NCBI RefSeq assembly: GCF_000733845.1
Contig: NZ_JPOI01000001.1
Location: forward strand, 1,155,501 to 1,219,500
Origin: Geobacillus vulcani PSS1
Lineage (GTDB): Bacteria; Bacillota; Bacilli; Bacillales; Anoxybacillaceae
Length of the DNA: 64,000 nucleotides
Direction: 5' to 3'
Position 1 is the stretch's first letter. Every line of letters starts with the position of its first letter. The notes below the pieces were generated by a model. The model was not told the origin of the DNA and made no database searches. It worked only from the letters and a program-made list of their open reading frames with translations. A program made the position numbers and the translations under genes. Positions 3,228-20,140 of the stretch are shown piece by piece.

Positions 3228-3310
3228 TATGATAACAAACTCTCCCAACGTATAGGCCGGGGCGAAAAAGGAAAGAATGGCAAATAACTAGTTTCAAAGA
3301 AAAGGGAGAG

Positions 3311-4974: not shown

Positions 4975-5864
4975 ACAAGCCTGTCATTACCGTGATCGGT
5001 AGTATCAACATGGACTTAGTCACCGTGGCGGCACGCTTTCCAAACCAAGGGGAGACCATCTTGGGCGAGCGGTTTCTCACCACTCCCGGCGGCAAGGGAG
5101 CGAACCAGGCGGTGGCGGCCGCCCGTCTTGGCGCCGACGTGCGAATGATTGGTGCGGTGGGGGATGATGCGTTTGGTCAAGAGCTCATCCGTTCGTTGCA
5201 AAATGAAGGCGTTTCCGTCGATTGTGTGAAATCGGTTACACATCAACGTACCGGCATTGCTGCGATTACGATTTCGCAACAGGACAACCGCATTATTGTC
5301 GTCCCTGGGGCGAATCATGCGCTGACGCCGGAGGATCTGGATCCATATGAATCCGTGATCGCCGAAAGCGATGTGTGCTTACTGCAGCTGGAAATCCCGC
5401 TTCCTGTTGTGGAGCGGGCCGTTTCGATCGCGCATCGCCACGGCGTGCGCGTCATCGTGAACCCAGCTCCAGCCCAGCCGCTGCCGCTCGTGGTGCTCGA
5501 GCAGGCGAGTTTCTTGACGCCGAATGAACATGAACGGGGCATTTTGTTTGACAAGATGGATGAAGAATCGTTTGTCGATCAGCTCATTGTCACCGAAGGG
5601 GCCAAAGGGGTGCGCATTTGGCAAGATGGACAAGAACGGCTCATTCCAAGTTTCCACGTTCCCGTCGTGGATACGACGGGCGCGGGCGATACGTTTAACG
5701 GGGCACTTGCCGTGGCGCTGGCGGAAGGGAAGGCGCTTCATGAAGCGTGCCGATTTGCCAATGCGGCTGCGGCTCTGTCCGTGACAAAAATCGGGGCGCA
5801 GGCTGGGATGCCGAGACGAGAGGAGGTGGAATCATTTTTGGCCGAACAGGAACGAAGTCAATGA
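4971..5864 (+). CDS. rbsK: Ribokinase
   Basis: A 297-residue PfkB-family kinase. N-terminal GSINMDLV and PGGKGANQAVAAARLGA (about 36-52) are the ribose-binding signature; DTTGAGDTFNGAL at about 234-246 carries the catalytic Asp and anion hole. It phosphorylates D-ribose to ribose 5-phosphate with ATP. The GTG start overlaps the rbsR stop. The last codons overlap the ATG of the rbsB remnant (ATGA), which suggests a deletion of rbsD, rbsA and rbsC with its junction at this point. The kinase itself looks intact. Confidence 0.88.
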   Translation: MNKPVITVIGSINMDLVTVAARFPNQGETILGERFLTTPGGKGANQAVAAARLGADVRMIGAVGDDAFGQELIRSLQNEGVSVDCVKSVTHQRTGIAAITISQQDNRIIVVPGANHALTPEDLDPYESVIAESDVCLLQLEIPLPVVERAVSIAHRHGVRVIVNPAPAQPLPLVVLEQASFLTPNEHERGILFDKMDEESFVDQLIVTEGAKGVRIWQDGQERLIPSFHVPVVDTTGAGDTFNGALAVALAEGKALHEACRFANAAAALSVTKIGAQAGMPRREEVESFLAEQERSQ

Positions 5865-6154
5865 GGCAAAAAGTCGATGTGCTACTGGTCAACCCGACGG
5901 ACTCAAGCGCTGTCACGTCTGCGATTGAATCCGCCAACAGCGCCAACATCCCGGTCATTACCGTCGACCGCAGCGCGGACGGCGGGAAAGTGGTCACCCA
6001 TATCGCTTCTGACAATGTGGCAGGAGGAAAAATGGCGGCGCAATTTATCGTCGACCACTTGAAAAACGGCGGAAACATTGTGGAATTGGAAGGGATTCCG
6101 GGCTCCTCGGCCGCACGTGAACGGGGAGAAGGATTCCACCAAGTGATCGACAAA
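5861..6154 (+). pseudogene. rbsB: Ribose ABC transporter binding protein, internal fragment
   Basis: The frame reads MRQKVDVLLVNPTDSSAVTS, then PVITVDRSADGGKVVTHIASDN and GIPGSSAARERGEGF. These are central RbsB segments. The signal peptide and first ~70 residues are missing on the left, and the protein is cut by the transposon at 6155 on the right. No continuation is found beyond the transposon at 9256. Ribose uptake through this locus must therefore be lost. Confidence 0.85.
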
Positions 6155-6290
6155 TGTAAATTATCACTTTATTTCGGAACAAAAGAGCCATTTTTTTGCA
6201 CATTCCTTCAGAAAGCCCTCTCCCCTTTTCTGAAAGAATGTGCTAAATTTTTTGTGAATTATTTCGGAAGAGAAAATCCATCGATTCAGA
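6155..6290 (+). repeat. Left end of the element with repeated transposase-binding motifs
   Basis: Besides the terminal repeat, TGCACATTCCTTCAGAAA near 6197, its inverted form TTCTGAAAGAATGTGC near 6228, and TGTGAATTATTTCGGAAG near 6253 are visible. The mixed orientation and spacing suggest an ordered transposase array. Confidence 0.65.
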
Positions 6291-6306
6291 GGAGGGGGAG
6301 GAGGAC

Positions 6307-6864
6307 GTGATTCAATTTCATGACTTTGGCATTGACGTCCAAACGTATGCAGAGCGTGGAAAAGAAAACGACTTCCCTCTTCTGACACAGTGTCCGCATT
6401 GCCGGGCCAAGCGCTCGTTGCACCGCCACGGCTACTATGAGCGAAACGCATTGACCCCACATGGTGATTATCGCATTTGGATTGTCCGGTATCGCTGTCG
6501 GGAATGCTTGAAGACGGTGAGTGTGCTGCCTTCCTTTCTCCTCCCGTATTTTCAGTATACGTTGTCCGCCATATGGCAAGTCGTGAAAGAGCAGTTGGGA
6601 TTGACCGAGGGGACGAACCGGGCTCCGTTTCTCCCGACAAAGGACGGCATCATCTTTTATGTCCGGCGGTTCTGCCGAAACCTATCAAACCTTCACAGCT
6701 TTTTTGCGAGGCGGTGGAGGATCATAGGCCCTATCGTGAAAAAAGAAAAGGAACGGGCTTCCTGGTGGATCCGGACGTTGGAGAAACACGGTCTCTATTC
6801 GGTCATCAGAGACATGTGGAAGGACGGATTCCGACACCCTTTTGCGAATCAAATGGGATCCTGA
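6307..6864 (+). CDS. DUF6431-like zinc-finger protein of the insertion element
   Basis: GTG start after GGGAGGAGGAC; 185 residues. Two CxxC pairs, CPHC near residue 29 and CRECL near 58, resemble the zinc ribbon of the DUF6431 proteins that accompany this transposase/ATPase pair in Bacillota. The C-terminal half is basic and helical. A DNA-binding or target-selection role is inferred from position only. It precedes the transposase by about 140 bases. Confidence 0.6.
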   Translation: MIQFHDFGIDVQTYAERGKENDFPLLTQCPHCRAKRSLHRHGYYERNALTPHGDYRIWIVRYRCRECLKTVSVLPSFLLPYFQYTLSAIWQVVKEQLGLTEGTNRAPFLPTKDGIIFYVRRFCRNLSNLHSFFARRWRIIGPIVKKEKERASWWIRTLEKHGLYSVIRDMWKDGFRHPFANQMGS

Positions 6865-7003
6865 TTTTACATACATATCCTAAATTGGAATGGTTGAGGT
6901 TCCCACAAACCTTTCCTATCGACGGAGAAAAAGCGATCCGGTACGATAAGGGCAGACGGACCGGAACGGTCCTGATTCCAAGTGAGACAAGGAGGAGATT
7001 CGA

Positions 7004-8255
7004 ATGGATGAGTCGATGAGACACGACATTGCCCTGTTTCGGTACGGGCTAATCGCTCCGTTGGTGAATGGGCAGGTGGAACCGAAGGCGTATCTGAAAG
7101 AGGTGAGCGAGCGAGTGCACCATGTTCCCCACCAAGGCGACAAACGAATCGCAGCCAAGACGATCCTCGATTGGTGCACCCGATACAAAAAAGGGGGCTT
7201 TGACGCCTTAAAGCCGAAGCGCCGTTCGGACCGCGGCCACTCAAGGCGTCTGTCGCCCGATGATGAGGATCATATTTTAGCCCTAAGAAAAGAACATCCC
7301 ACCATGCCCGTGACGGTGTTCTACGAACACCTGATCGAGCAGGGGGAAATCCCAAAAAACCATATCTCTTACTTTACTATATACCGATTGTTGAAAAAAC
7401 ACAACCTTGTCGGGAAAGAAATCTTGCCCATGCCGGAGCGAAAGCGCTTTGCGTATGACCAGATCAATGAGCTTTGGCAAGGGGACTTATCCCATGGACC
7501 AACGATTCGAGTCAATGGGAAAGCCCAGAAAACGTTTTTGATCGCCTATATCGATGACTGCTCGCGGTTTGTGCCGTACGTATAGTTTCCCTTCGGAGAA
7601 GTTTGACGGGCTGCGGATCGTCACGAAGGAAGCGGTGCTTCGTTGCGGGAAGCCGAAGCGCATTTACTCGGACAACGGGAAAATTTATCGATCCGAGGTG
7701 CTGCAGTATGCGTGCGCCGAGATGGGAATTACGCTCATCCACACCCAGCCGTATGACCCGCAAAGCAAAGGGAAAATCGAACGGTTCTTCCGCACCGTAC
7801 AGACGCGGTTTTATCCGCTGCTGGAGTTGGATCCCCCGAAGTCGCTCGAAGAGCTGAACGAGCGTTTTTGGAGGTGGCTTGAAGAGGAGTATCATCGAAA
7901 ACCGCACGCCTCGCTGGACGGAAAAACGCCGCATGAGGTGTTTCAATCGCAAGTGCATCTCGTGTCGTTCATCGAAGATGGCGATTGGCTGGATGCGATT
8001 TTTCTGAAGCGGGAGCAACGCAAGGTCAAAGCCGATGGAACGATCACCTTGAACAAGCAGCTGTATGAAGTGCCGCCCCGGTTCATTGGGCAATCGATTG
8101 AACTCCGCTATGACGAACGGGGCGTCTATGTGTACGAAGATGGAAGGAAGGTGGCGGAGGCCGTTCGGGTTCGTTTGGAGGACAACGCCTATGTAAAACG
8201 CCATCGGTCCCCGTTTGCGGCGATTCCGGCGAAGGAGGGAGAACACGGTGTATAA
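7004..8255 (+). pseudogene. DDE (rve-type) transposase, frameshifted
   Basis: The first frame (7004-7585) has a helix-turn-helix region followed by the start of the integrase core, ELWQGDLSHGP with the first catalytic Asp, and stops after DDCSRFVPYV. The protein continues one base further on in another frame with SEKFDGLRIVTKEA, YSDNGKIY (second Asp) and GKIERFFRT (Glu), then a C-terminal domain up to 8255. All three catalytic residues exist but sit in two frames. The shift needed is +1 without an obvious slippery site, so I read it as a mutation. It overlaps the ATPase start. Confidence 0.8.
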
Positions 8256-9048
8256 ATCGTTTTACTCCCTTTCGCGGGAGCCGTTTGCGAAAGAAACAGA
8301 CCCGTCCGAGGCGTATCAAGGGGCGCCGTTTCAGGAAGCGTTGCGGGCGCTGGAGTACGTGAAACGAACCCGGGGGATCGGGCTGTTGATCGGAGAGCCG
8401 GGGGCGGGCAAGACGTTCGCCCTTCGGGCGCTGAAAGAATCATTGAATCCATCATTGTATCATGTCGTCTACTTTCCGTTATCCACCGGAGGCGTGATGG
8501 ATTTTTACCGTGGTTTGGCCTTGGGATTAGGAGAGGAACCGAAGTACCGCAAGGTAGACCTCTTCCGCCAAATCCAGCAGGCGATCGAGCGATTGTATCA
8601 TGAACGGCGGATCACGCCGGTGTTCATTTTGGACGAGATGCATTTAGCGAAGGATGCATTTTTACAGGACATCGCGATCTTGTTCAACTTTGAGATGGAT
8701 TCGACCAACCCATTTGTCTTGATTTTGGCCGGGCTGCCCCATTTACAGGGGAAGCTGCGGCTCAATCAGCACCGCCCTCTCGACCAGCGGATCATCATGC
8801 GATACCGGATGGGGCCGCTGGAGAAGGAAGAGGTGGCGGGCTACATCAAGCATCGGATGAAACAGGCCGGGGCGAAGCATCCGATCTTCACCCCATCGGC
8901 GTTAGAGGCGATTGCCCTGCAGTCGCGGGGATGGCCTCGGGTGATCAACACGTTGGCCACGACGTGCCTGTTATACGGGTATCAGCTGAAAAAGGACGCC
9001 ATTGACGAAGAAATGGTGCGCATGGCCGCAGAGGAAATGGGGTATTAG
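8248..9048 (+). CDS. AAA ATPase (ExeA/TniB-like) of the insertion element
   Basis: GTG start eight bases after GAAGGAGGG; 266 residues. Walker A GEPGAGKT is at residues 49-56, Walker B VFILDEMH at about 125-132, and the arginine-containing sensor region LDQRIIMRYRMGPL follows. This is the transposition-helper ATPase type (TniB/TnsC/MuB/ExeA-like) that selects targets and activates the transposase. It overlaps the transposase 3' end by 8 bases and looks intact. Confidence 0.8.
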   Translation: MYKSFYSLSREPFAKETDPSEAYQGAPFQEALRALEYVKRTRGIGLLIGEPGAGKTFALRALKESLNPSLYHVVYFPLSTGGVMDFYRGLALGLGEEPKYRKVDLFRQIQQAIERLYHERRITPVFILDEMHLAKDAFLQDIAILFNFEMDSTNPFVLILAGLPHLQGKLRLNQHRPLDQRIIMRYRMGPLEKEEVAGYIKHRMKQAGAKHPIFTPSALEAIALQSRGWPRVINTLATTCLLYGYQLKKDAIDEEMVRMAAEEMGY

Positions 9049-9114
9049 CACGAAAGGGGCCGAATCGGCCTCTTTTGTGCTTTCTCTTTTCCATAGGTCC
9101 ATCAGGCGCGCTGG

Positions 9115-9255
9115 AAATCTTCATCTGAAAGAGCGTGCAAACGTTCCGAAAGAATGTGCAAAATCCGGAACAATCCGCAAAAATTTTGCACATTATTTCC
9201 GAATCCGCCTGAAATAATTTGAAAAAGGGATTCTGAAATAATGTGCTAATTTACA
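9115..9255 (+). repeat. Right end of the element with repeated motifs
   Basis: From left to right, TCTGAAAGAGCGTGCAA, TTCCGAAAGAATGTGCAA, TTTTGCACATTATTTCCGAA (opposite orientation), CCTGAAATAATTTG and the terminal TTCTGAAATAATGTGC are visible. The multiplicity is typical of Tn7-like ends. Confidence 0.65.
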
Positions 9256-9504
9256 ATAGAGAAACATTCGCATGTACTATGTTGTGGGCGATTTGGCTCT
9301 AGCCATGAAAAAAGCCATTTCATGAGCGTGTTCAGGGGCTGTGCATAGGGTTGATTCTTTTCACGTGAAGCCTTCCGCAGCTAATTTTTCTCCCATAGCT
9401 CGGCTTGCAGATTGAGCCCACAGGATCTTTGCCGGAAGTGCCGCAACGCCTACGGTGTGCAGGATGTGTTGTATGTATAGTATTATTTTTAAAAAAATTT
9501 TATA
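9256..9504 (+). other. Gene-free junction between transposon and RiPP-like operon
   Basis: No supported coding sequence. It does not continue rbsB, so the right flank of the transposon differs from the left. The last 40 bases become strongly AT-rich and lead into the operon promoter. Confidence 0.5.
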
Positions 9505-9534
9505 TTGACAATATATAATATATATATATATAAT
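9505..9534 (+). promoter_or_regulatory. Consensus sigma-A promoter of the RiPP-like operon
   Basis: TTGACA (9505-9510) and TATAAT (9529-9534) are both perfect and separated by 18 bases. Transcription would begin near 9541, about 30 bases before the peptide gene. This is one of the best promoters in the window. Confidence 0.85.
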
Positions 9535-9572
9535 TGGTAATGTATACGATTTTTAGTAGAAAGGGGGGAAAC

Positions 9573-9638
9573 ATGCGAGTAAAAGTGATCAAGAAGTCTA
9601 GGAAAAAACCAGCTAAAGCAACTTGTTATGACTGGTAA
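9573..9638 (+). CDS. 21-aa candidate RiPP precursor peptide
   Basis: A near-perfect ribosome-binding site (AAAGGGGGGAA) is followed by ATG and 21 codons. The peptide has a basic N-terminal part (MRVKVIKKSRKKPAK) and ends ATCYDW, with a single cysteine four residues from the C-terminus. It is the first gene behind a consensus promoter and precedes an unknown protein, an exporter and a DUF692-type enzyme. DUF692/MNIO enzymes modify Cys (MbnB, TglH) or Asp (ApyH) in small precursor peptides; both residues occur in this tail. No homologue is known to me, so the precursor role is inferred from context, ribosome-binding site and composition. Confidence 0.75.
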   Translation: MRVKVIKKSRKKPAKATCYDW

Positions 9639-9644
9639 GTTAAA

Positions 9645-9686
9645 CCTCCATGGCTACGCCTACATAAAGGTGCTAGCCATGGGGGG
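9645..9686 (+). promoter_or_regulatory. Intercistronic hairpin covering the next ribosome-binding site
   Basis: CCTCCATGGCTA (9645-9656) pairs over 12 bp, with one G-T wobble, with TAGCCATGGGGG (9674-9685). The 17-base loop holds AAAGGTG, the likely ribosome-binding site of the next gene, and its ATG (9679) lies in the right arm. CTTTTACTT follows. It could lower expression of the downstream genes relative to the peptide, protect the peptide mRNA, or act as a leaky terminator. Confidence 0.65.
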
Positions 9687-10131
9687 CTTTTACTTGCATG
9701 TGTACTCAATGTATATTTATTCTAGGGATGAAATTTTCGAAAAATTTGTCATTCAATCTCTCGATCGATTTATGATTATATTTAAAGAGTATTTACCTAA
9801 GAATGTCGAACTCCCTCGAAATGTTCAAGCTGACATACTTCGAATCTACTTTGAAAGGGATTGTTCGTTTTCTTTCTTTTTTTTCTTAGAAGTCGTTAAG
9901 TATACTTATCAGATTCATATGTATGACATAGTAAGGTCTATTTTAGAAACAATGGTTAGTTACTTTAGAGATTTTAATTATGGAATATTAGTAAAATTCA
10001 AGGATGGTTATGAGCTATATGTTTCGGAAGATGGGGAGGACGCATCTGTCTTTTTTTTCAGTCACATACTAGAGTACGAAGAATTCAAAAAAACACAAGA
10101 AGTGGAAAGAGTGTATTATGAGATATGTTAA
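9679..10131 (+). CDS. Unknown protein, candidate partner of the DUF692 enzyme
   Basis: A 150-residue protein when started at ATG 9679, six bases after AAAGGTG; GTG 9700 and ATG 9709 are alternatives. I do not recognise a family. It is rich in aromatic residues (FFFFLEVVKYTYQIHMYD), appears alpha-helical first and then beta-like (ILVKFKDGYELYVSEDGEDASVFFF), and ends in cysteine. MNIO enzymes normally work with a small partner that binds the precursor (MbnC, TglI). This gene stands where such a partner would be expected but does not resemble DUF2063. Codons are AT-rich. The stop overlaps the exporter start. Confidence 0.6.
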   Translation: MGGFYLHVYSMYIYSRDEIFEKFVIQSLDRFMIIFKEYLPKNVELPRNVQADILRIYFERDCSFSFFFFLEVVKYTYQIHMYDIVRSILETMVSYFRDFNYGILVKFKDGYELYVSEDGEDASVFFFSHILEYEEFKKTQEVERVYYEIC

Positions 10132-11215
10132 GGAAATTCAATTTATTGCTTTACTATACTTATTTTTAATTTTGTTATCTGGTATTCTTTATTCCTACAC
10201 GATAACTAGAATTGTATCTATTTCCCATATCTCCCCTTTTTGGGTTATAATTACAAACTCAATTATTAGCATGTTCATTTTTATTGACTTTTCTTATATA
10301 AAGAAAATTTCAACTTTACATTCTCGGCTTATTAGTGCAGTGACAAGCTTTCTTTTATTGATACTATTTTTTTTGTCATTTATTCTAAAAGATCAAGGAA
10401 TGATCTTATTAGCTGTATACGCCATTTCAGTTTTCTCTTCTTCGTATGTCGGAAGAAGTTTGGAAAGAAAAATATTCGAAGAGGAGAAACGCTTATTTGG
10501 CGGTATGGTGAAAATTAGTATAGTTGGGAATTTAGCGAAACTTATAGGATTTGGAGTAGGGGCTATCATTTTCAGTATTCCTTTAAGTATATACATTTTC
10601 TTATCATTCATTTTGTTTTTAGTCATGGCAAGTGTAAATGTTGAACACGGTTTTTCATATAGCAAGGCTTCTATTGCCGGTAAAAAGAAAGTAAATAGTT
10701 TATTTTTGTTACTATTTGTTGGGCTTATATCATCCATTCCCATTCTATGGATACCATCTTTAGTAGAAAGATTTAATGAGGCAGGCATGATCAAGTTATC
10801 TTTTATTCCATTTGTATTACCGGGAACAATGAACATTTTATTTCTGAGATATCTGAAGGATAGGATTTGGAGTAAGTATATTCCTCTCTTTTACTTTATA
10901 TTAACTGTGTTTTTCATGGTGATATATTATGTTGATGTCTCCCTTATTTTTCAAGTTATAGTACTGAGTACTATTATCACTCTAGGTGTGAGCATAAATG
11001 TTTATATAAATACGATTTTTCTTCAGAAAAATAAAACAAGGGACAAGAGGGAGCTAATGCAATTAATTAATGTTGTTACATCCGTCTCTACTTTATTATT
11101 TAGTTTTTTCGCCATGTACATTTCCCTTACTGTTCATCTGATGTTATTAATAAACGCTACGTTAAGTTTGTTTATTTTTGTATTTTTTGCGCGAATAAGG
11201 GGAGAAGATGAATGA
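10118..11215 (+). CDS. MFS-like membrane exporter of the RiPP-like operon
   Basis: A 365-residue polytopic membrane protein with about eleven hydrophobic segments in two groups split by a charged loop around residues 180-195 (YSKASIAGKKKVNS). The layout resembles a short MFS transporter, although I see no strong MFS signature motif. It overlaps the preceding gene by 14 bases and the DUF692 gene by four (ATGA), so the three are translationally coupled. Export of the modified peptide, or import of a metal complex, is inferred from context. Confidence 0.65.
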   Translation: MRYVKEIQFIALLYLFLILLSGILYSYTITRIVSISHISPFWVIITNSIISMFIFIDFSYIKKISTLHSRLISAVTSFLLLILFFLSFILKDQGMILLAVYAISVFSSSYVGRSLERKIFEEEKRLFGGMVKISIVGNLAKLIGFGVGAIIFSIPLSIYIFLSFILFLVMASVNVEHGFSYSKASIAGKKKVNSLFLLLFVGLISSIPILWIPSLVERFNEAGMIKLSFIPFVLPGTMNILFLRYLKDRIWSKYIPLFYFILTVFFMVIYYVDVSLIFQVIVLSTIITLGVSINVYINTIFLQKNKTRDKRELMQLINVVTSVSTLLFSFFAMYISLTVHLMLLINATLSLFIFVFFARIRGEDE

Positions 11216-12015
11216 AAATAGGATTATGTTACAGAGATTCTATTCACGAGGAATTTATTGATGAATTAATTAAATACGTAGATTTTCTCGAACTCATGCC
11301 CGATATAACTGGATATAAGGAGACTAAAAGGTTATTGAAACTATGTAAGGAAAATAATGTTGATATAGGTATACATTGTTTACGATCCTCCTTGGGTTCA
11401 AAAGAAGGAATATACAGACCGGCAATTGAACAGTATGCTTTCTACAGTGATTATGTAAATGCAAAATATTATTCAGATCATGTCGCCTATTCCCATATAC
11501 ATGGCATTTATTTATCGAAGGTTTTTCCGATAGAGTATACTGTGGAAAATGTACAGATAATGAGAAGGAATCTGGAAATTACATCAAGCTTTTTTTCTAA
11601 TCCGATCTTAATAGAGAATATTACACAAAATAAGTTGTCTAATAAGAATGTCTTAAGTGAAGGAAGGTTCTTTAAAGAATTACTGAAGGATGTGAATCCT
11701 CGTATAAAAATTTTGTTTGATGTAACAAATGCGTATGTAACAGCTTTAAATAATAACTATTCTTTTGAAGAATATACATCAGAATATCCTTTTGAAAGAA
11801 TTGAATGTATTCATGTTTCTGGATTTGAGAGGGATCGTGGAGGAGTGCTAAGAGATACACATTCTAATTCTATCAATAACGAGATTTTGACATCAACAGA
11901 ATGGATATTGCAACGCACGAATCCAAAGTACATACTTATAGAAAGAGATTTTAATATTCAATCAATTGATGATGTGCTAGAGGACATTTGTAAAATTAGA
12001 TGCATCGTTCGATGA
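11212..12015 (+). CDS. DUF692/MNIO-type iron oxidase of a RiPP pathway
   Basis: 267 residues with the TIM-barrel DUF692 pattern: VDFLELMPD (23-31), GIHCLRSSLGS (H55), SDH at 88-90, IENIT with E135-N136, FDVTNAYVTALNN (D170, N173), IHVSGFE (H201), DTH (D215, H217) and IERD (E244, D246). These correspond to the conserved metal ligands of multinuclear non-heme iron oxidases such as MbnB and TglH. Two positions deviate from the usual DVNN and HLAGH. The sequence is far from the characterised members, so the chemistry cannot be named. No other metal enzyme is nearby. Confidence 0.8.
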   Translation: MKIGLCYRDSIHEEFIDELIKYVDFLELMPDITGYKETKRLLKLCKENNVDIGIHCLRSSLGSKEGIYRPAIEQYAFYSDYVNAKYYSDHVAYSHIHGIYLSKVFPIEYTVENVQIMRRNLEITSSFFSNPILIENITQNKLSNKNVLSEGRFFKELLKDVNPRIKILFDVTNAYVTALNNNYSFEEYTSEYPFERIECIHVSGFERDRGGVLRDTHSNSINNEILTSTEWILQRTNPKYILIERDFNIQSIDDVLEDICKIRCIVR

Positions 12016-12097
12016 GCATCCTGTCAATATTATACTTCACATTTCGCACCTTAACAGGGTCAAAAAAAAGATTTTTTATTTTTAGAACCCATGGTGC

Positions 12098-12339
12098 TAT
12101 ATAGATGCAATTTGAAGCTTTACCATTTGCAGCTTTTACCGAGTATTTGATCGACTGTCGGGCGACCGAACAACGCCGCTTCCAGACCCATATATAGGTC
12201 TGTGAAACAGGCGGTTGTTCGGTCTTCCGTCACGCCTTGGTGTGACGGAGGCAAGCCTGTGGCTTGCCTTCGACAGTCGAAAATGGACAAACCGCTTTTC
12301 CGTCAAGGATGTGTTAGACTTCTTCGTTGCATCTATATA
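12098..12339 (+). repeat. 242-bp inverted-repeat element, copy 1 (MITE-like)
   Basis: The ends TATATAGATGCAA and TTGCATCTATATA are perfect inverted repeats. Inside are long complementary arms: CGACTGTCGGGCGACCGAAC pairs with GTTCGGTC and CGACAGTCG further on, so the whole element can fold. It encodes no protein. TA at both outer borders could be a target duplication of the IS630/mariner type. Confidence 0.8.
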
Positions 12340-12406
12340 TAGGTTCATAACGAAGCGCTTCTTGGTTCATACTAAAGGAAAAGCTCGCAAAAGAAAGGGA
12401 CTCGCC

Positions 12407-12790
12407 ATGCTTCGTGAACTCGACTGGATGACGTACATCATGATCATTTTGGCCAGCTATCGGTTCACCCACTTGATCGTCTTTGATAAGATCACGGAGT
12501 TTATTCGCAATCCGTTTATGAAAAAAGAGACAATCCAACACGAAGACGGGAGTACGGAAATCAAGAAGGTGCCGAAATCGAAATTCGGCTATTTGTTGAA
12601 CTGTTACTGGTGTGCGGGAGTGTGGAGCGCGGTTTTTCTCGCGCTTGGGTATTTATTCATCCCAAAGATCGCCATGCCGTTGATTTTTATCTTTTCGATC
12701 GCCGGGGCGCAGGCGATTCTCGAGACGTTTGTCGGAGTCGGGACGAAGGCGGTCGATCTGTTGTCGGCGGCGAAAAAGCGGATGGACTGA
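12407..12790 (+). CDS. DUF1360 family membrane protein
   Basis: A 127-residue protein with GAAAGGGA before ATG 12407. It has an N-terminal helix (MTYIMIILASYRFTHLIVFD), a charged loop, the NCYWCAGVWSAVFLALGYLF segment with paired cysteines typical of DUF1360, and a third helix. The B. subtilis relative is a sporulation-associated small membrane protein, but the role here is unknown. Copy 1 of the MITE-like repeat lies just upstream and may supply or disrupt its promoter. Confidence 0.75.
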   Translation: MLRELDWMTYIMIILASYRFTHLIVFDKITEFIRNPFMKKETIQHEDGSTEIKKVPKSKFGYLLNCYWCAGVWSAVFLALGYLFIPKIAMPLIFIFSIAGAQAILETFVGVGTKAVDLLSAAKKRMD

Positions 12791-12795
12791 CATTG

Positions 12796-12834
12796 GCGGG
12801 CGTGCGGCGGAAACATGCGGCACGCTCGCTTTTC
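12796..12834 (+). terminator. Terminator after the DUF1360 gene
   Basis: GCGGGCGTGC pairs with GCACGCTCGC (one wobble), followed by TTTTCTTGCTTTT. Confidence 0.75.
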
Positions 12835-12857
12835 TTGCTTTTGTCGATACATCATGG

Positions 12858-12887
12858 TTGACTTATATAATTATTTAATTATATACT
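12858..12887 (+). promoter_or_regulatory. ars promoter with embedded ArsR-type operator
   Basis: TTGACT (12858) and TATACT (12882) are 18 bases apart. The spacer and part of the -10 are occupied by TATATAATTA-TT-TAATTATATA (12864-12885), a 10+10 perfect inverted repeat. ArsR bound here would exclude RNA polymerase until As(III) releases it. Confidence 0.75.
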
Positions 12888-12987
12888 GATTGACGGAAAC
12901 CATTTCATTGGTCGGCGTGGCCGTTTCATGATGGATGTTCGTTTTTATATAAGCAAATCATGATATGATGATGAATGGAGGGGTGAT

Positions 12988-13335
12988 ATGCCGCAACTCG
13001 CAATGGAGATAGGAGCAGCCGCTCGGGTGTTGAAGCTGCTCGGCGATCCGACGCGGCTGACGATTTTGGCGATTTTGAATCAGCGGGAGTGCTGTGTGTG
13101 CGAGCTGCTTGAGGTGTTTTCGTCAAGCCAGCCGGCGATCAGCCAGCATCTTCGCAAGTTGAAAGACGCCGGGCTGATCCAAGAGGAGCGGAGGGGGCAA
13201 TGGGTGTATTATTCGCTCCGGCCGCAAAGCGAATACTACTCCCTGCTGCAAGCGGTGTTGTCATACGTTCCGGACCAAGACGAAAACATTCGCAAAATCG
13301 AGACAGCGAATCCCGCGGCCCGCTGCGGGTGCTGA
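12988..13335 (+). CDS. arsR: ArsR-family arsenic-responsive repressor
   Basis: 115 residues with a winged helix (DPTRLTILAILNQRECCVCELLEVF, SSSQPAISQHLRKLKDAGLI). The cysteines at 35, 36 and 38 match the alpha-3 ECCVCEL As(III) site. The protein ends with another CGC cluster. It is the first gene of an arsR-acr3-arsC operon and very likely autoregulates through the palindrome at 12864-12885. AATGGAGGGGTGAT precedes the ATG. Confidence 0.88.
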   Translation: MPQLAMEIGAAARVLKLLGDPTRLTILAILNQRECCVCELLEVFSSSQPAISQHLRKLKDAGLIQEERRGQWVYYSLRPQSEYYSLLQAVLSYVPDQDENIRKIETANPAARCGC

Positions 13336-13359
13336 CTTTAAACAACGAGGTGAAGAACG

Positions 13360-14424
13360 GTGGATTGTTGTGAACCGAAGCGGTTGTCGTTTTTAGACCG
13401 CTTTTTGACGGTATGGATTTTTTTAGCGATGGCGGCTGGGATTGGAATCGGGATTTGGGCTCCGGGGCTGGTGGATGGGTTGAACCGTCTGCAAGTGGGG
13501 ACAACGTCGATTCCGATTGCGATCGGCTTGATGTTGATGATGTATCCGCCGCTCGCAAAAGTGCGCTACGAGGAAATGGGACGCGTGTTCAAAGATGTGA
13601 AGGTACTCGTCTTATCCCTCGTGCAAAACTGGGTGATCGGTCCGCTGCTTATGTTCATATTGGCGGTCGTCTTTTTGCCTGACAAGTCGGAGTATATGAT
13701 TGGTTTGATTTTAATCGGGCTCGCCCGCTGTATCGCCATGGTCATCGTCTGGAATGACCTGGCGCGCGGTGACACAGAGTACGCAGCGGGTCTTGTCGCC
13801 TTCAATTCACTGTTTCAAGTATTGTTTTTCTCGCTGTATGCGTACGTGTTTGTGACAGTCATTCCGGAATGGCTCGGGTTGGAGGGGGCGATTGTTGAGA
13901 TCACGATGGCGGAAGTGGCGAAATCGGTGTTTATTTATTTGGGAATTCCGTTTTTCGCCGGCATGGCGACAAGGTTTACGCTGGTGAAAGTGAAAGGCCG
14001 GTCATGGTATGACACGGTATTCGTTCCGAAAATCAGCCCGCTGACGCTCGTTGCGCTTTTGTTTACGATCATCGTAATGTTTTCGCTCAAAGGCGATATG
14101 ATCGTCAACTTGCCGTTTGATGTCGTCCGGATTGCCATTCCGTTGCTTCTTTATTTTGTTATCATGTTTTTTGTGTCGTTCTTTTTGGCGAGAAAATGGG
14201 GGGCTGGCTATCCGGTGTCGACGACGCTGGCGTTTACAGCAGGAAGCAATAACTTTGAGCTGGCCATTGCCGTCGCCATTGGGGTGTTTGGCATTCATTC
14301 GGGTGCGGCGTTTGCGGCGGTGATCGGCCCGCTTATTGAAGTGCCGGTGATGCTCGCGCTTGTCAACGTCGCCTTGGCGTTTCAGCGAAAGTATTTTTCC
14401 TCAGCTGCTCCAGAATCAAAATAA
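13360..14424 (+). CDS. acr3: Arsenite efflux transporter, ACR3 type
   Basis: 354 residues, GTG start after GAGGTGAAGAACG. About ten membrane helices contain [35 protein letters not shown] with the conserved Cys at 124, and [19 protein letters not shown] with [10 protein letters not shown] near the end, all ACR3/bile-acid:Na+ symporter family features. It pumps arsenite out of the cell using the proton gradient. The gene lies between arsR and arsC and is often labelled arsB. Confidence 0.92.
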
Positions 14425-14439
14425 AGGTGGGAATCAACG

Positions 14440-14859
14440 ATGAAGAAAAAAATCATTTATTTCTTATGCACGGGAAACTCATGCCGCAGCCAAATGGCGG
14501 AAGGCTGGGCCAAGCAACTGTTAGGCGATGAATGGGACGTGTACAGCGCCGGGATTGAAGCGCATGGGCTCAATCCGAATGCCGTCAAGGTGATGAAGGA
14601 AGTCGGCATTGATATTGCGAAGCAAACGTCTGATGTCATCGACCCGGACTTGCTGAATCGCGCCGATTTGGTCGTGACGCTGTGCGGCCATGCGGCCGAC
14701 CATTGTCCGGTCACTCCGCCGCACGTGAAGCGCGTCCATTGGGGCTTTGATGATCCAGCGAAAGCGGAAGGGACAGAAGAGGAGAAACTCGGGGTGTTCC
14801 GCCGCGTGCGCGATGAAATTGGCGCGCGCCTCCGCCGTTTTGCCGAGACGGGTGAATAG
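14440..14859 (+). CDS. arsC: Arsenate reductase, thioredoxin-coupled
   Basis: 139 residues of the low-molecular-weight phosphatase fold: the loop CTGNSCRS holds nucleophile Cys10, and Cys82 and Cys89 (LCGHAADHC) complete the disulfide relay of thioredoxin-dependent ArsC. It reduces arsenate to arsenite, which Acr3 then exports. AAAGGTGGG stands before the ATG, 15 bases after acr3. Confidence 0.92.
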
Positions 14860-15078
14860 GAACGGGGCGGCAAGGCGCAGAAACTGCCGTGCATAGGGTG
14901 CGCGGCAGCTGCTCATCGAAGTGCGGACGGAAACAGGGAAGTGGCTGAACGGACGAAAACCGCTCGGCGCGAAAAAGATGGTGAGAAGCCATCTTGTCGA
15001 TCCATCGCACGTTCTGACAGACGAAATGAGCACACCAATGAAGGCGGTGCCACATCAGGTCACAGGGGGAGAAACCGA

Positions 15079-15516
15079 ATGGAGTTATTTCATCAGTTAG
15101 CTCGCCGAAACATAAAAATCAGCAAACAGTCCGGTTTCGGGGAGCAATTACGACAACAGTGGGAAAGGGTGTTTGCCGGCCATTTGACTGCGGAAGAAAA
15201 ACAACACATCCACCTTCATAATCGGAATGAAGTCAACGGCTACTTATGGCATGTGTTCAGCTATGAAATGAGAGACTGTTTAACGGGAGAAGAAGCGGAG
15301 ACGGCGTTTGATCAAGAAGAGAAAACGTGCTGCTATCTTTTCTTTCAACACAGCGACGATGCGTTCAAAGTGGAGGACGCTTCCGGTTTGAAAGCTGCCG
15401 ATCTGGCAATGGAAAACGACAAGGTCGATCTATACGTGGTGGACAGCGAGTTCAACTGGACGTTTGTCATTACGCACGAAAACGGATGGCTTGGCCCGTA
15501 TTTTAGCCGAAGGTGA
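15079..15516 (+). CDS. DUF4275-like cytoplasmic protein
   Basis: 145 residues starting at ATG 15079 behind AGGGGGAG. Segments such as YLWHVFSYEMRDCLTGEEAETAFDQ and CYLFFQHSDDAFKVED match the general look of DUF4275 proteins, whose role is unknown. The C-terminal part (LYVVDSEFNWTFVITHENGWLGPYF) resembles Imm-like or small enzyme-regulator folds; this is only an impression. It stands alone between arsC and a bidirectional terminator. The 220 bases upstream hold no gene. Confidence 0.55.
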   Translation: MELFHQLARRNIKISKQSGFGEQLRQQWERVFAGHLTAEEKQHIHLHNRNEVNGYLWHVFSYEMRDCLTGEEAETAFDQEEKTCCYLFFQHSDDAFKVEDASGLKAADLAMENDKVDLYVVDSEFNWTFVITHENGWLGPYFSRR

Positions 15517-15630
15517 CACCGTGGTTTCCAGTAAGGAGCTCGGTCCTCAGTCCTTGGTTAGTTGCACATACACGCTACTCGTTTTGCTTATCAACGGAAT
15601 CCGATGAGGCAAAAGAACCGCCTGAAAAAG

Positions 15631-15672
15631 AGTTCCAACCGGTCCTTACACAGACCCGGTTGGAACTTTTCG
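15631..15672. terminator. Bidirectional terminator
   Basis: AGTTCCAACCGG and CCGGTTGGAACT form a 12-bp stem with a T run on the plus strand and an AAAAAG run before the stem, giving TTTTT on the minus strand. It serves both converging genes. Confidence 0.8.
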
Positions 15673-15673
15673 T

Positions 15674-16660
15674 TTATCGCTCGTCGGCGGGAAAGAGGAT
15701 GCCGGTTTGTCTTCGCGCTTCGTCCATGATTTCCATCGTCCAAAGCGAATGGCGGTGCGAGTTGATGGCAGACTCCCGTTCCCCGCTTTCGATGAGACGG
15801 ATAAACTCTTTCGCCTCGTAATACATCGGCGGTTTGTCTTGCGGGACGGTGATGTCCTCGACGCGCCCGTCGCGGTAGCGAATGTCGATTTTCGCCGGCG
15901 TATGGATGGCGTCGATGATCATGTTTCCGTCTTCGCCTTGGATTTCTGAAGGCAAGTGCGAGTTTGTGATTTTGGAATAAAAGACGACTGCATCCATGTC
16001 CCCGTAATCCAACACGATCGCCCCCTCGCCGTCAACGCCGGATGCGAGCTTCACGCTTTGCGCCTTCACGCTGCGGGGCTTGCCGAACAAAACGACCATC
16101 GGGTACAGGCAGTAGACGCCAAGGTCCATGAGCGCCCCGTTCGAGAAAGCGGGGTTGAAGGCGTTCAGCACCGTCCCCTGTTTGTAGGCATCATAGCGCG
16201 ATGAATATTGGCAGTAGTTCGCCACATAGCGGCGGATGCGGCCGAGTTTCGGCAGGTGCTCGCGGATGGCTGCGAAGTTGGGCATGAGCGTTGACTTCAT
16301 CGCTTCCATCAGAACAACGCCGTTTCGTTCGGCCGCTGCGATCATCGCCTCGACTTCTTTCGCATTCGAGGCGAGCGGTTTTTCACATAGGACGTGTTTG
16401 CCGTGGTTCATCAACAAAATTGCTTGTTCAGCGTGGAACGCATTGGGGCTCGCGATGTAGACGGCATCAATGTCAGGGCTGCCTGCCAGTTCGTGTAAAT
16501 CGGTGAACGTGTGCGGCGCGCCAACCTTCTCGGCAAACCGCTTCGCTGTCTCGTCCGTCCGCGAGCAGACGGCGGCGAGTTCAAAGGAATCGATGAGCCG
16601 CGCGGCGTCAATAAACGCTTCGGTGATCCAGTTTGTGCCGATTGTTGCGAATCGAACCAT
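15674..16660 (-). CDS. Gfo/Idh/MocA family NAD(P)-dependent oxidoreductase
   Basis: 328 residues. An N-terminal Rossmann fold (MVRFATIGTNWITEAFIDAA), then YIASPNAFHAEQAILLMNHG, the signature GKHVLCEKPLASN with the catalytic-type EKP, and a C-terminal alpha/beta domain (FSNGALMDLGVYCLYP) define the family. Such enzymes oxidise or isomerise sugars, cyclitols or related alcohols; the substrate is unknown. The neighbouring VOC gene is in the same direction about 100 bases upstream. Confidence 0.85.
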   Translation of the reverse strand: MVRFATIGTNWITEAFIDAARLIDSFELAAVCSRTDETAKRFAEKVGAPHTFTDLHELAGSPDIDAVYIASPNAFHAEQAILLMNHGKHVLCEKPLASNAKEVEAMIAAAERNGVVLMEAMKSTLMPNFAAIREHLPKLGRIRRYVANYCQYSSRYDAYKQGTVLNAFNPAFSNGALMDLGVYCLYPMVVLFGKPRSVKAQSVKLASGVDGEGAIVLDYGDMDAVVFYSKITNSHLPSEIQGEDGNMIIDAIHTPAKIDIRYRDGRVEDITVPQDKPPMYYEAKEFIRLIESGERESAINSHRHSLWTMEIMDEARRQTGILFPADER

Positions 16661-16759
16661 GTTGTTTGGCCTCCTTCATTTGTATCGATCCCCATTGTAC
16701 CATAAACCAATGGAGAGGCTTCGTTTTGTCATCGTCATTGAGCAGGTGCGCTTTTCTCT

Positions 16760-17152
16760 CTAGTTTTCATACAGCTCAATCGGCAGCCCGTCCGGATCTT
16801 GGAAGAAGGTGAACCGTTTGCCGGTCGCTTCATCGATGCGAACTGGTTCGGGATTGATGCCATGGCGGCGCAAGTAGGCAATGGCTTCATCAATGTCATC
16901 GACGGCCAACGCGAGATGGCGTAAGCCGCACGCTTCCGGGTAGCTTGGGCGTTTGGGCGGGTTTGCAAATGAGAACAGCTCAAGTTGAATGCCGCCGTCC
17001 GCTTCTAAATCAAGTTTGTATGAGCGACGGGCGGCGCGATATTGCTCACGGAGGGGCCGAAAGCCAAGAATGTCGGTGTAAAACCGTTTGGACCGCTCAT
17101 AGTCGGAGCAAATGACAGCGATATGATGAATGGTCGCAAGGCGCATGTTCAC
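16760..17152 (-). CDS. VOC-family glyoxalase-like protein
   Basis: 130 residues with two beta-alpha-beta-beta-beta modules: IHHIAVICSDYERSKRFYTDILGF at the N-terminus, GLRHLALAVDDIDEAI in the middle and FFQDPDGLPIELYE at the end. The paired His and Glu residues could hold a divalent metal. It resembles the YaeR/SMU1112c lactoylglutathione-lyase-like group, for which the substrate is not established. A second Met at residue 3 is an equally good start. Confidence 0.8.
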   Translation of the reverse strand: MNMRLATIHHIAVICSDYERSKRFYTDILGFRPLREQYRAARRSYKLDLEADGGIQLELFSFANPPKRPSYPEACGLRHLALAVDDIDEAIAYLRRHGINPEPVRIDEATGKRFTFFQDPDGLPIELYEN

Positions 17153-17700
17153 TCCTCCCTTGTGTATGACGTCTTTTCCCTTCGGTCAACGAAGCGGGAA
17201 GGTCAATAGTCAACAGCCATGTCCTCCAACAATAAGATTCTTCCATCGAGAAGCCGTGTCCCCTACCGCGTTGGATGACTAGCGAGGAGGGGATGGTTGG
17301 TTTTTCCTATTCCTCTAAAAAGGTTTCCGAATGCGACTGTTTTCTTTGGCAGCGGTCGATGGGGATCATCGTCGCTTTTTCAACGATGCGCTTTGACTTT
17401 GGCGCACAGGCAAGAAGTTGTTATGTTGCGATAATGACAACGTTCATCGAGAGTTGTCGAAGCTAGCGAAAAATGTCGGTCCTCCTTATATTGACAGGTC
17501 GACAATCTATATACTATCATAAACCTTGTAGGTTGAAAAATTTAGAATATTCATTTTCTATTTTCGTAGAAAAAGATTCTCACCACGAATTTTGTAAGCG
17601 CTTCACCGCTGCACTGCCTCATAATCGCAACATCATCGATGCTGCACCATTGTGTTTGTTTCCAATCGCAACACGAGAAGAAGAGGAAGGGGATATCGCT
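17153..17700 (+). other. Long upstream region of the 2-oxoacid dehydrogenase genes
   Basis: No convincing gene. TTGACA at 17491 with TATCAT 18 bases later is a plausible promoter. TGTAAGCGCTT at 17593-17603 matches the first 11 positions of a CcpA cre site but not the last three. The resulting leader of about 180 bases holds no riboswitch I recognise. Confidence 0.45.
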
Positions 17701-18993
17701 ATGATCTATGAATTTAAGTTGCCTGATATTGGCGAAGGGCTGCATGAAGCCGAAATTATTCGCTGGCTCGTCCGTGAAGGGGATGTCGTCAACGCCGATC
17801 AGCCGATTGCGGAAATACAGACTGATAAGGCCATGGTCGAAATGACGACGCCGGTGGCGGGGAAAGTGGTGGCGCTTGCTGGGCCGGAAGGGGCGACGGT
17901 CAAGGTGGGAGAGCCGTTGATTGTCGTGGAAACCGAGGCGGCGGTCGCGGGGGAAGCGGCGCCGACTGAAGATTCGGTTCGGGAGCCTGTGCCTGCTGCT
18001 CATGGAGAAGCGTTGCGTCCAGCCCGCAAACGGGCGATTGCGGCGCCGTCGGTGCGCAAGCGGGCGCGGGAGTTGGGCGTTCCGATCGATGAGGTGGAAG
18101 GAACGGGCGAAGGCGGCCGGGTGACGCTCGCCGATGTGGAGCGGTATGTCAGGGAGCGGGAGGCGGCCGCGACGGTGGCGGCAAGGGACGAAGCGAAGAA
18201 AGATGCCCTGCCGACCGGCGGCGCGGCTGGAGGACGGCAGGCGAGTATAGCCACATGGACATCCATCGCGGGCTTGGATGCCTTGTTTGAGGAAGAAGAG
18301 CGCGTTCCACTCCGCGGTTTGCGCAAAAAAATTGCCGAAAAAATGGTGAAATCGGTGTATACGGCGCCGCATGCGACCGGGATGGACGAAATCGACGTGA
18401 CGAAGCTCGTCGAGATTCGAAAAAGCCTTGCCAGCGAGCTGGCGAAGGAGCAGATCAAGCTGACGTATTTGCCGTTTATCATTAAGGCGGTGACAAGGGC
18501 GCTGAAGGAATATCCGATGTTTAACGCTTCGCTTGATGAAGAGACGAATGAAATCGTGTTGAAGAAACGGTATCACATCGGCATCGCGACGGCGACGAAG
18601 GCGGGACTGTTGGTGCCTGTCATCCGCGACGCCGATCAAAAATCGATTCGCGAGTTGGCCGTTGAAATCGCCGAACTTTCCGAGAAAGCGCACCGCCAGG
18701 CGCTTCGCCTTGAGGAGCTGCAAGGAAGCACGTTCACGATCACGAGCACCGGCGCGGGCGGGGGATGGTTTGCGACGCCGATCATCAATTACCCGGAAGT
18801 GGCGATTTTCGGGGCGCATGCCATCAAGCGGAAACCGGTCGTGATCGACGATGAGATTGTCATTCGCGACATGATGGGGATCTCGCTCACGTTTGATCAC
18901 CGTGTCATTGACGGTGAGCCGGCCGGACGGTTTATGCGGACGGTGGCGCACTATTTGAGCCATCCGGAAGTGCTGCTGCTGGATGTTCGGTAG
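17701..18993 (+). CDS. Dihydrolipoamide acyltransferase E2 of a 2-oxoacid dehydrogenase
   Basis: 430 residues. The lipoyl domain is N-terminal (EIQTDKAMVEMTTP, lipoyl-Lys near 43). An Ala/Glu-rich linker, the E3/E1-binding domain (APSVRKRARELGVPIDEVEGTGEGGRV, about 116-145) and the catalytic domain ending FDHRVIDGEPAGRFM follow. It transfers the acyl group made by E1 to CoA. E2 comes before E1alpha and E1beta here, opposite to the usual order, and no E3 gene is present. Start chosen at ATG 17701 behind GAGGAAGGGG; the open frame extends upstream without homology. Confidence 0.9.
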   Translation: MIYEFKLPDIGEGLHEAEIIRWLVREGDVVNADQPIAEIQTDKAMVEMTTPVAGKVVALAGPEGATVKVGEPLIVVETEAAVAGEAAPTEDSVREPVPAAHGEALRPARKRAIAAPSVRKRARELGVPIDEVEGTGEGGRVTLADVERYVREREAAATVAARDEAKKDALPTGGAAGGRQASIATWTSIAGLDALFEEEERVPLRGLRKKIAEKMVKSVYTAPHATGMDEIDVTKLVEIRKSLASELAKEQIKLTYLPFIIKAVTRALKEYPMFNASLDEETNEIVLKKRYHIGIATATKAGLLVPVIRDADQKSIRELAVEIAELSEKAHRQALRLEELQGSTFTITSTGAGGGWFATPIINYPEVAIFGAHAIKRKPVVIDDEIVIRDMMGISLTFDHRVIDGEPAGRFMRTVAHYLSHPEVLLLDVR

Positions 18994-19060
18994 TCTCATT
19001 TGTTGAGCGGCATCAAGAGGCCGCGATGGTCATGGGGAAAACAATGGGGGAGGGGATTCG

Positions 19061-20140
19061 ATGTTCGATCCAAATGAGCTGTCCATCGAGATGGTGCAAA
19101 TTCTCGATGAACATGGGAATGGCGATGAACAGAAGCTGGCGGCGTTTTCCGATGGGTGGCTGCTTGATGCTTATCGGGCGATGCGGCGGGCGCGCGTCAT
19201 CGATGAGCGGCTGTTGCGCATGCAGCGGCAAGGACGGATCGGAACGTATGCGCCGTTCAGCGGCCAAGAGGCGGCGCAAGTCGGCAGCGCTCTTGCGCTC
19301 CGAAACGACGACTGGATTTTCCCGAGCTACCGTGAAGTGGCGGTCTGTTTGTTGCAGGGCATGCCGCTTGAACAGTTTTTCCATTACGTGCAGGGCCGCC
19401 TGTCGGGAAAGCGGATGCCGGATGGGGTGAACATTTTTCCGACGCAAATCATCATTGCCGCTCAGACGCTGCATGCCGTCGGCTGCGCGTGGGCATCGAA
19501 ATTGAAAGGCGAGCCGCACGTATCGGTGGCTTATTTCGGCGACGGAGCGACATCGGAAGGCGATTTTCATGAAGCGATGAACTTTGCCGCGGTATACAAC
19601 GTGCCGGTCATCTTTTTCTGTCAAAACAACCAGTATGCGATTAGCGTTCCGTACGCCAAGCAGACGGCGAGCCGAACGATCGCGCAAAAGGCGCTTGCCT
19701 ACGGGATGAAAGGAGTGCTGGTTGACGGCAACGACGTGTTGGCGGTGTATGAAACGATGAAACAGGCGGTCGATGCGGCGCGCCGCGGGGAAGGGCCGAT
19801 GTTGATCGAGGCGCTCACGTATCGGCTTGGGCCGCATACAACGGCGGACGACCCGACGAAGTACCGGCGGCCGGAAGAAGTCGAAGCGTGGCGGCGGAAA
19901 GATCCGCTCCACCGCTTGCGTGTGCTGCTGGAGCGGCGCGGGTTGTGGACGGAGGCGCAGGAAGAAGCATTCGTTGCGGAAGTGAACGCGGAAGTGACAG
20001 CGGCGTATGAGGCCGCCATTGCCAGCCCATCCGGTTCCATTGCCGATGTATTCGATCATGTGTACAGCGAGGCGCCGAAATTGCTCGCCGAACAAAAAGC
20101 GGAAGTGATGCGGCGCAAGCAGGCAAAAGGGGTGAAATAA
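19061..20140 (+). CDS. 2-oxoacid dehydrogenase E1 component, alpha subunit
   Basis: 359 residues. The thiamine diphosphate motif GDGATSEGDFHEAMNFAAVYN begins at about residue 163 and continues into VPVIFFCQNNQYAIS; TYRLGPHTTADDPTKYR is the conserved phosphorylation-loop region. With E1beta it decarboxylates a 2-oxoacid (pyruvate or branched-chain) and passes the acyl group to E2. AGGGGATTCG precedes the ATG. The stop is adjacent to the E1beta start. Confidence 0.9.
   Translation: MFDPNELSIEMVQILDEHGNGDEQKLAAFSDGWLLDAYRAMRRARVIDERLLRMQRQGRIGTYAPFSGQEAAQVGSALALRNDDWIFPSYREVAVCLLQGMPLEQFFHYVQGRLSGKRMPDGVNIFPTQIIIAAQTLHAVGCAWASKLKGEPHVSVAYFGDGATSEGDFHEAMNFAAVYNVPVIFFCQNNQYAISVPYAKQTASRTIAQKALAYGMKGVLVDGNDVLAVYETMKQAVDAARRGEGPMLIEALTYRLGPHTTADDPTKYRRPEEVEAWRRKDPLHRLRVLLERRGLWTEAQEEAFVAEVNAEVTAAYEAAIASPSGSIADVFDHVYSEAPKLLAEQKAEVMRRKQAKGVK

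Follow-up and report, generated by a model that had tools for sequence, protein, structure and literature searches.

A rare gene cluster in Geobacillus vulcani PSS1 that probably encodes a compact MNIO-dependent peptide modification pathway with a 21-residue precursor

We analyzed a 64,000-nucleotide (nt) stretch of the Geobacillus vulcani PSS1 genome (NZ_JPOI01000001.1, positions 1,155,501 to 1,219,500), referred to here as the window, in which a small cluster of genes accompanies an enzyme of the MNIO (DUF692) family. On the plus strand the cluster comprises, in order, a sigma-A box, a ribosome-binding site (RBS), a gene for a 21-amino-acid (aa) peptide, a hairpin, and genes for a 140-aa protein, a membrane protein, and the MNIO enzyme. 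We judge, at a probability of roughly 0.84, that these elements make up a genuine and rare pathway for a ribosomally synthesized and post-translationally modified peptide (RiPP), compact and MNIO dependent, in which the 21-aa peptide would be the precursor. An earlier note on this DNA had proposed that a short precursor and an MNIO enzyme form a pathway of the RiPP type, on the strength of a consensus promoter, an RBS, a 21-codon gene ending ATCYDW, an exporter-like membrane protein, a DUF692-like enzyme, and overlapping starts among the last three genes. All of these features were recovered, the exporter function as a prediction, and conservation of the peptide beside homologues of the enzyme supports the proposal itself.

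The promoter (9505 to 9534, plus strand) is of the sigma-A type and matches the consensus at 12 of 12 positions, with an 18-nt spacer of TA repeats between TTGACA and TATAAT. When both strands were scanned, it was the only perfect sigma-A box with 16- to 18-nt spacing in the window, and none of 2,000 dinucleotide shuffles of positions 9450 to 9649 produced a perfect box on the plus strand. Looser promoter-like sites were not enriched at 9050 to 12300 (18 observed versus 15.3 expected). Hexamers and spacing are identical in genome G009, which carries a related cluster. The RBS of the peptide gene, read from the sequence as AAGGGGGGAAAC (9562 to 9569, plus strand), lies ahead of the ATG, and the copies in G009 and a further genome, G020, have AGGAGG at the corresponding position. 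The TA-repeat spacer has the same length, 18 nt, in the window and in G009 (locus L006, ~3249 to 3278), with no length difference so far; slippage in such a repeat could switch the peptide gene on and off.

The peptide gene (9573 to 9638, plus strand) starts at ATG 9573, stops at 9636 to 9638, and encodes the 21 residues MRVKVIKKSRKKPAKATCYDW. In a protein search of 49 genomes (41 of the window's family plus eight more in which the enzyme had a match), four gave the peptide at an E value of ≤0.003, namely, the window genome (G000), G020, G009, and G252; a weak row from G027 (E value of 0.47) was left out of the counts. G020 has the same peptide as the window, G009 has MQVKVIKKSGKKLAKETCYDW, and G252 carries two tandem copies, MRVKTIKKSNKKFANETCYD and MRVRTIKKSNKKFANETCYD, both of which stop at TGA where the other copies have TGG and end in ETCYD, without Trp. 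Of the 20 positions that all copies share, 13 are invariant, including I-K-K-S in the leader and T-C-Y-D in the tail. Relative to the window, G009 shows four silent and four changed codons and the first G252 copy seven silent and five changed; the Cys, Tyr, and Asp codons all differ, silently, between the window and that G252 copy. The earlier note had suggested looking for the peptide next to DUF692 homologues, and in three of the four other genomes it does lie upstream of the cluster genes. Two intact relatives (G009 and G252) and one broken one (G020) have it 5′ of these genes, a recurrence beyond chance, and by these comparisons the peptide is a real gene under selection.

The peptide (calculated isoelectric point [pI], 10.4) probably divides into a basic leader of ~16 aa and the tail T-C-Y-D-W. 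Trp was rejected as the modification target: both G252 peptides lack it, whereas the other four tail residues (Thr, Cys, Tyr, and Asp) never vary, which makes Trp an unlikely target. Cys or Asp had been put forward as the target. Both are indeed invariant, but Tyr and Thr of the tail are equally so, and the MNIO targets on record are wider, including Cys, Asn, Asp, and Phe (PMC12257519). T-C-Y-D is the likely site of chemistry by virtue of its residues, not of conservation alone. The putative precursor has one Cys and is, in our judgment, short. A pneumococcal small frame, rio77, also ends in ETCYD (PMC9426450); its start is CTG and its leader seems different, and we take the likeness of the tails to be an unproved coincidence.

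A stable stem-loop (9645 to 9685, plus strand; −31.8 kcal/mol for 9636 to 9702) separates the last peptide gene from the 140-aa gene in the window (z = −4.9), in G009 (z = −4.4), and in G252 (z = −5.2). Compared with the window and G020, G009 has both bases altered in 3 of 12 stem pairs and has lost the pairing in 2 of 12. In this comparison of only three sequences, three double changes were reached by 15 of 500 shuffles and sliding the partner strand gave at most one, while the count of further pair types was not above that of shuffles (398/500). Only a short T-run follows the hairpin, and 9645 to 9685 is absent from the sites given by the terminator scan; we therefore read the hairpin as probably an attenuating, leaky terminator or an mRNA stability stem, either of which would favor the peptide.

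The next gene (9709 to 10131, plus strand) encodes an acidic 140-aa protein (calculated pI, 4.7), a candidate partner or leader-recognition protein. Its start is most likely ATG 9709, from which the G009 and G252 homologues align; a start at 9628, giving 167 aa, was rejected on that alignment and because the hairpin intervenes. What had been described as an unknown 150-aa protein is therefore most likely 140 aa in size. The longer, 167-aa frame served as the window query in the Pfam and first NCBIfam searches. Pfam gave nothing better than an E value of 0.15 for this protein or its relatives (NifT at 0.15 for the G009 protein and DUF5580_M at 0.21 for the 167-aa frame), neither NCBIfam nor PHROGs gave a match, and there was no PDB sequence match at an E value of ≤5. 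A comparison with three proteins encoded beside other Bacillota MNIOs, which themselves lack a Pfam family, gave no profile match with shallow alignments. No sequence match to the DUF2063/PME-type partner family was found, and the earlier statement that the partner is not DUF2063-like holds for Pfam, NCBIfam, and PDB sequences; it holds at the sequence level only, since MNIO partner proteins missed by the DUF2063 signature exist (PMC12452194). Because that signature misses some partners, the 140-aa protein is possibly a distant DUF2063/RRE-type partner. It was seen in cluster genomes only. Among the 49 genomes, it was found in the same four as the peptide. In a draw of 397 genomes of the order, it gave strong matches in two, plus six weak rows (E values of 6e-4 to 0.009) that were taken as chance; five of these have stops inside the match, and the sixth, in G337, has none.

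The membrane protein (10118 to 11215, plus strand; 365 aa) has 12 hydrophobic segments in a Kyte-Doolittle window, the number of membrane segments expected of the major facilitator superfamily (MFS), and is a candidate exporter on that basis. No MFS profile match was obtained: the window protein had no Pfam or NCBIfam match at an E value of ≤1 and no meaningful one in PHROGs, its G252 relative had none in Pfam, and the G009 relative had two chance Pfam rows above an E value of 2, neither of them MFS. Gene overlaps are limited to the last three genes of the cluster, at 10118 to 10131 and 11212 to 11215.

The last gene (11212 to 12015, plus strand) encodes the 267-aa MNIO enzyme, which matches PF05114 (MbnB/TglH/ChrH) with 205.2 bits against a cut-off of 25 (E value of 1.4e-60). 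The iron ligands reported for TglH are His71, His107, Glu151, Asp184, Asn187, His216, Asp229, His231, and Glu258 (PMC10880893), and a sequence alignment places H55, H90, E135, D170, N173, H201, D215, H217, and E244 of the window enzyme at these nine positions. Divergence at two conserved motifs had been noted and a check of the metal site proposed; judged from the alignment, all nine ligand positions are intact and the divergence leaves the site untouched. Five NCBIfam MNIO equivalogs matched the enzyme, and none reached its cut-off: BufB (130 bits versus 310), HvfB (126.9 versus 360), MbnB (53 versus 325), ChrH (52.1 versus 600), and ApyH (50.9 versus 400). By these cut-offs, the predicted enzyme is outside all five equivalogs. 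In a set of 13 sequences, 11 had all nine ligands, the exceptions being G572, which differs at two, and G465, which has Tyr at position 90. In a tree of this set, a long branch with 100/100 support set the window, G009, G252, and G465 enzymes apart; with a small sample that includes no characterized enzyme, the separateness is from those nine other sequences only.

Enzyme matches were found in 4 of 41 genomes of the window's family (the window, G009 at 83% identity over the full length, and fragments in G017 and G020), 3 of 397 of the order (the window, G017, and G252 at 53%), 8 of 398 of the class (the window, G017, G465 at 41%, and five at 22 to 38%), and 2 of 398 of the phylum, the second one distant, as well as in 1 of 34 genomes of the family of G252 and 1 of 196 of that of G465; these draws overlap, and the counts are not additive. 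The enzyme clade is rare within the genomes searched. Intact clusters are present in two other genomes, G009 and G252, and broken ones in G017 and G020. Neither the peptide nor the 140-aa protein was found in G017, whose contig stops 219 bases 5′ of the enzyme start. In a scan of genome contigs, the sole locus recovered was a broken Geobacillus icigianus copy.

To delimit the unit, frames of at least 40 aa were compared across positions 5000 to 20000 of the window, 16 kb of G252, and 11 kb of G009. Apart from other-frame echoes of the same stretches, the proteins common to all three loci were the enzyme, the transporter, and the 140-aa protein, the peptide being too short for this comparison. 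From this comparison and the peptide search, the conserved unit is made up of these three genes together with the peptide gene. Identity to G252 is 70 to 75% for the peptide (a rough figure for so short a sequence), 53% for the enzyme, 34% for the 140-aa protein, and 28% for the transporter. Peptide and enzyme are thus held tightest, and their joint conservation, set against the drift of the other two, is in keeping with a substrate-enzyme pair. In the broken G020 copy (L008, 6501 to 8420), the enzyme match ends after ~47 codons beside a transposase-like frame, and other sequence, beside a second such frame, has taken the place of the promoter's −35 side (both frames were named from reading); the peptide, 140-aa protein, and transporter frames are still open there.

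A short gene-encoded precursor conserved next to a modifying enzyme is one mark of a RiPP pathway, and that is the arrangement found here; that G252 carries the peptide gene twice in tandem also counts in favor of such a pathway. The cluster would work like a RiPP pathway and is a putative member of the class. In the mechanism that we propose, the strong promoter and RBS would supply the 21-aa precursor in excess over the enzymes, and the hairpin would pass only part of the transcription on to the other genes. The acidic 140-aa protein would grip the basic leader and present the C-terminal tail to the enzyme. Using bound iron and O2, the MNIO would then oxidize a residue of T-C-Y-D, most likely Cys or Asp. 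The MFS-like protein would export the product. Trimming of the leader is assigned to a host protease because no recognized protease is encoded in the cluster. The partner role, the division into leader and tail, the modified residue, export, trimming, and the biological role are what we infer from this arrangement.

Several observations weigh against such a pathway. The candidate partner role of the 140-aa protein is argued from gene position and charge, and no recognized peptidase accompanies the cluster. The peptide codon counts are not one-sided, with as many silent as changed codons between the window and G009, and T-C-Y-D is not the sole invariant run, I-K-K-S being likewise four residues long. 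The G017 and G020 copies are broken, and the trait is therefore dispensable. The most distant member of the clade, G465 (L017, 5551 to 6776), is the one with Tyr at ligand position 90, and neither the peptide nor the 140-aa protein was found in it, its contig stopping 413 bases 5′ of the enzyme. That contig ends in or just before an upstream membrane-protein-like frame.

Characterized MNIO systems resemble the cluster in part. The TglHI system for 3-thiaglutamate (pearlin) likewise has an MNIO with the same nine ligand positions and a C-terminal target, and the shortest TglA-Cys fragment still modified has 19 residues (PMC10880893). TglA, however, is a scaffold of 50 residues that receives its Cys in a tRNA-dependent step (PMC9016710), whereas no recognized ligase is present here and the 140-aa protein has no PDB chain match at the E value given above. 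ApyHI, of the aminopyruvatides, changes the C-terminal Asp of ApyA, and a Cys of that precursor is required yet unmodified (PMC11117315). The G252 peptides likewise end in Asp with Cys two residues earlier, but the window Asp precedes Trp, the ApyH model score is far below its cut-off, and the shared unit here has no B12-radical-SAM enzyme, P450, or methyltransferase. PesHI, of the nitrilobacillins, has its MNIO in a Bacillus relative and hydroxylates the PesA Asp one position before the C terminus (PMC13060819), which is the position of Asp in the window peptide; it differs in its tail, R(V/T)DN versus TCYD(W), and in a nitrile synthetase, an HExxH enzyme, and M16 peptidases that the shared unit lacks. 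The PbsCD biphenomycin-like pathway also joins an MNIO, a partner, and an MFS transporter (PMC12257519), but its FHAFRF motif, arginase, B12-radical-SAM enzyme, and protease are absent here. BufB (bufferin) and HvfB are the best NCBIfam matches of the enzyme; they differ in that their cut-offs are unmet, the 140-aa protein has no DUF2063 match, and the precursor here is short with one Cys. By analogy, the TCYD tail would fit an ApyA-like or PesA-like change of Asp or a reaction at Cys. The outcome of an MNIO reaction is described as unpredictable unless the enzyme is highly homologous to a studied one (PMC12257519). No such homologue stands among the five NCBIfam models matched, and the window enzyme's reaction cannot be predicted from sequence. 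Literature searches, with subscription journals mostly outside their coverage, found no antecedent for an MNIO in Geobacillus, Anoxybacillus, or Bacillaceae RiPPs and met DUF692 together with Geobacillus only in work on another organism. The enzyme family is known, no described match was found for the form of the cluster and its partner protein, and the product is very probably a modified peptide.

A bolder version, which we offer tentatively and with the odds against it, is that the cluster represents a minimal MNIO system of its own class, with a precursor of 20 to 21 residues, a new kind of 140-aa recognition protein with no relation to DUF2063/RRE partners, and an invariant T-C-Y-D tail converted to an undescribed C-terminal group. 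If so, the final Trp, by its presence or absence, would naturally switch the Asp target between internal and terminal.

Of the three alternatives weighed, the most serious is that the peptide serves as a scaffold, as in 3-thiaglutamate biosynthesis, whose C-terminal residue or residues, once remodeled, are cleaved from it and then exported in the form of a small amino-acid-like molecule. A peptide this short and strongly conserved, with Cys, Tyr, and Asp only at its extreme C terminus, would suit such a role, as would a 12-segment exporter in place of an ABC peptide exporter, and TglHI does work on a C-terminal Cys (PMC10880893). No recognized tRNA-dependent ligase or protease occurs among the shared genes, however, and we regard the scaffold as improbable, though well ahead of the other two alternatives. 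Because it is a variant of the modified-peptide pathway, our confidences in the two overlap.

The second alternative concerns the setting. GC content is ~30 to 31% over 9500 to 12000 against 44 to 59% in most neighboring 500-base steps, and the cluster therefore looks acquired. Transposition genes (an integrase core with a Mu-type C terminus and an AAA ATPase) lie 5′ of it. Together with the broken relatives in G017 and G020, these features would suit a decaying mobile remnant that serves no function in this strain. The four reading frames, the promoter, and the RBS of the window are nevertheless intact, as are the G009 and G252 copies, and we consider a remnant very unlikely. A phage origin was rejected: the enzyme, the one cluster protein searched for in phage records, had no match there or in viral contigs. 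So was a plasmid origin: 321 plasmid records held distant MNIOs only, none at ≥60% identity, and plasmid records gave no match to the peptide, the 140-aa protein, or the transporter.

The last alternative, marginally less likely again, makes the 21-codon gene a regulatory leader peptide whose Cys-Tyr-Asp-Trp codons govern attenuation of the downstream genes at the hairpin, with another substrate for the MNIO and transporter; it draws on the short gene directly 5′ of a stable hairpin and the partner gene and on rare-amino-acid codons at its end, but conservation at the protein level extends to the N-terminal half (I-K-K-S and K-K), the Trp codon is lost in G252, where the peptide gene is doubled ahead of one hairpin, known MNIO enzymes work on peptides, and no Rfam family, and so no known RNA element, reached the gathering score at 8000 to 13500.

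As a modified-peptide pathway, the cluster would offer an easy test system, with an MNIO that sits apart from the others compared, all nine ligand positions kept, perhaps a single partner, and a peptide that can be synthesized. It could be used to probe new peptide chemistry and how MNIO enzymes find their substrates. The host is presumably a thermophile, to go by its genus, which may help crystallization.

On its 3′ side the cluster is followed by a DUF1360 protein and an ArsR-type regulator. The latter belongs to an apparent arsenic resistance set (12988 to 14859) with an SBF-family transporter and an arsenate-reductase-like frame, the last named from reading only. The DUF1360 protein is common to the window and G009; it adjoins the cluster in the window and lies ~4 kb from it in G009 (L006, 10065 to 10394), where the cluster adjoins a CotO-like spore coat gene (L006, 5926 to 6279).

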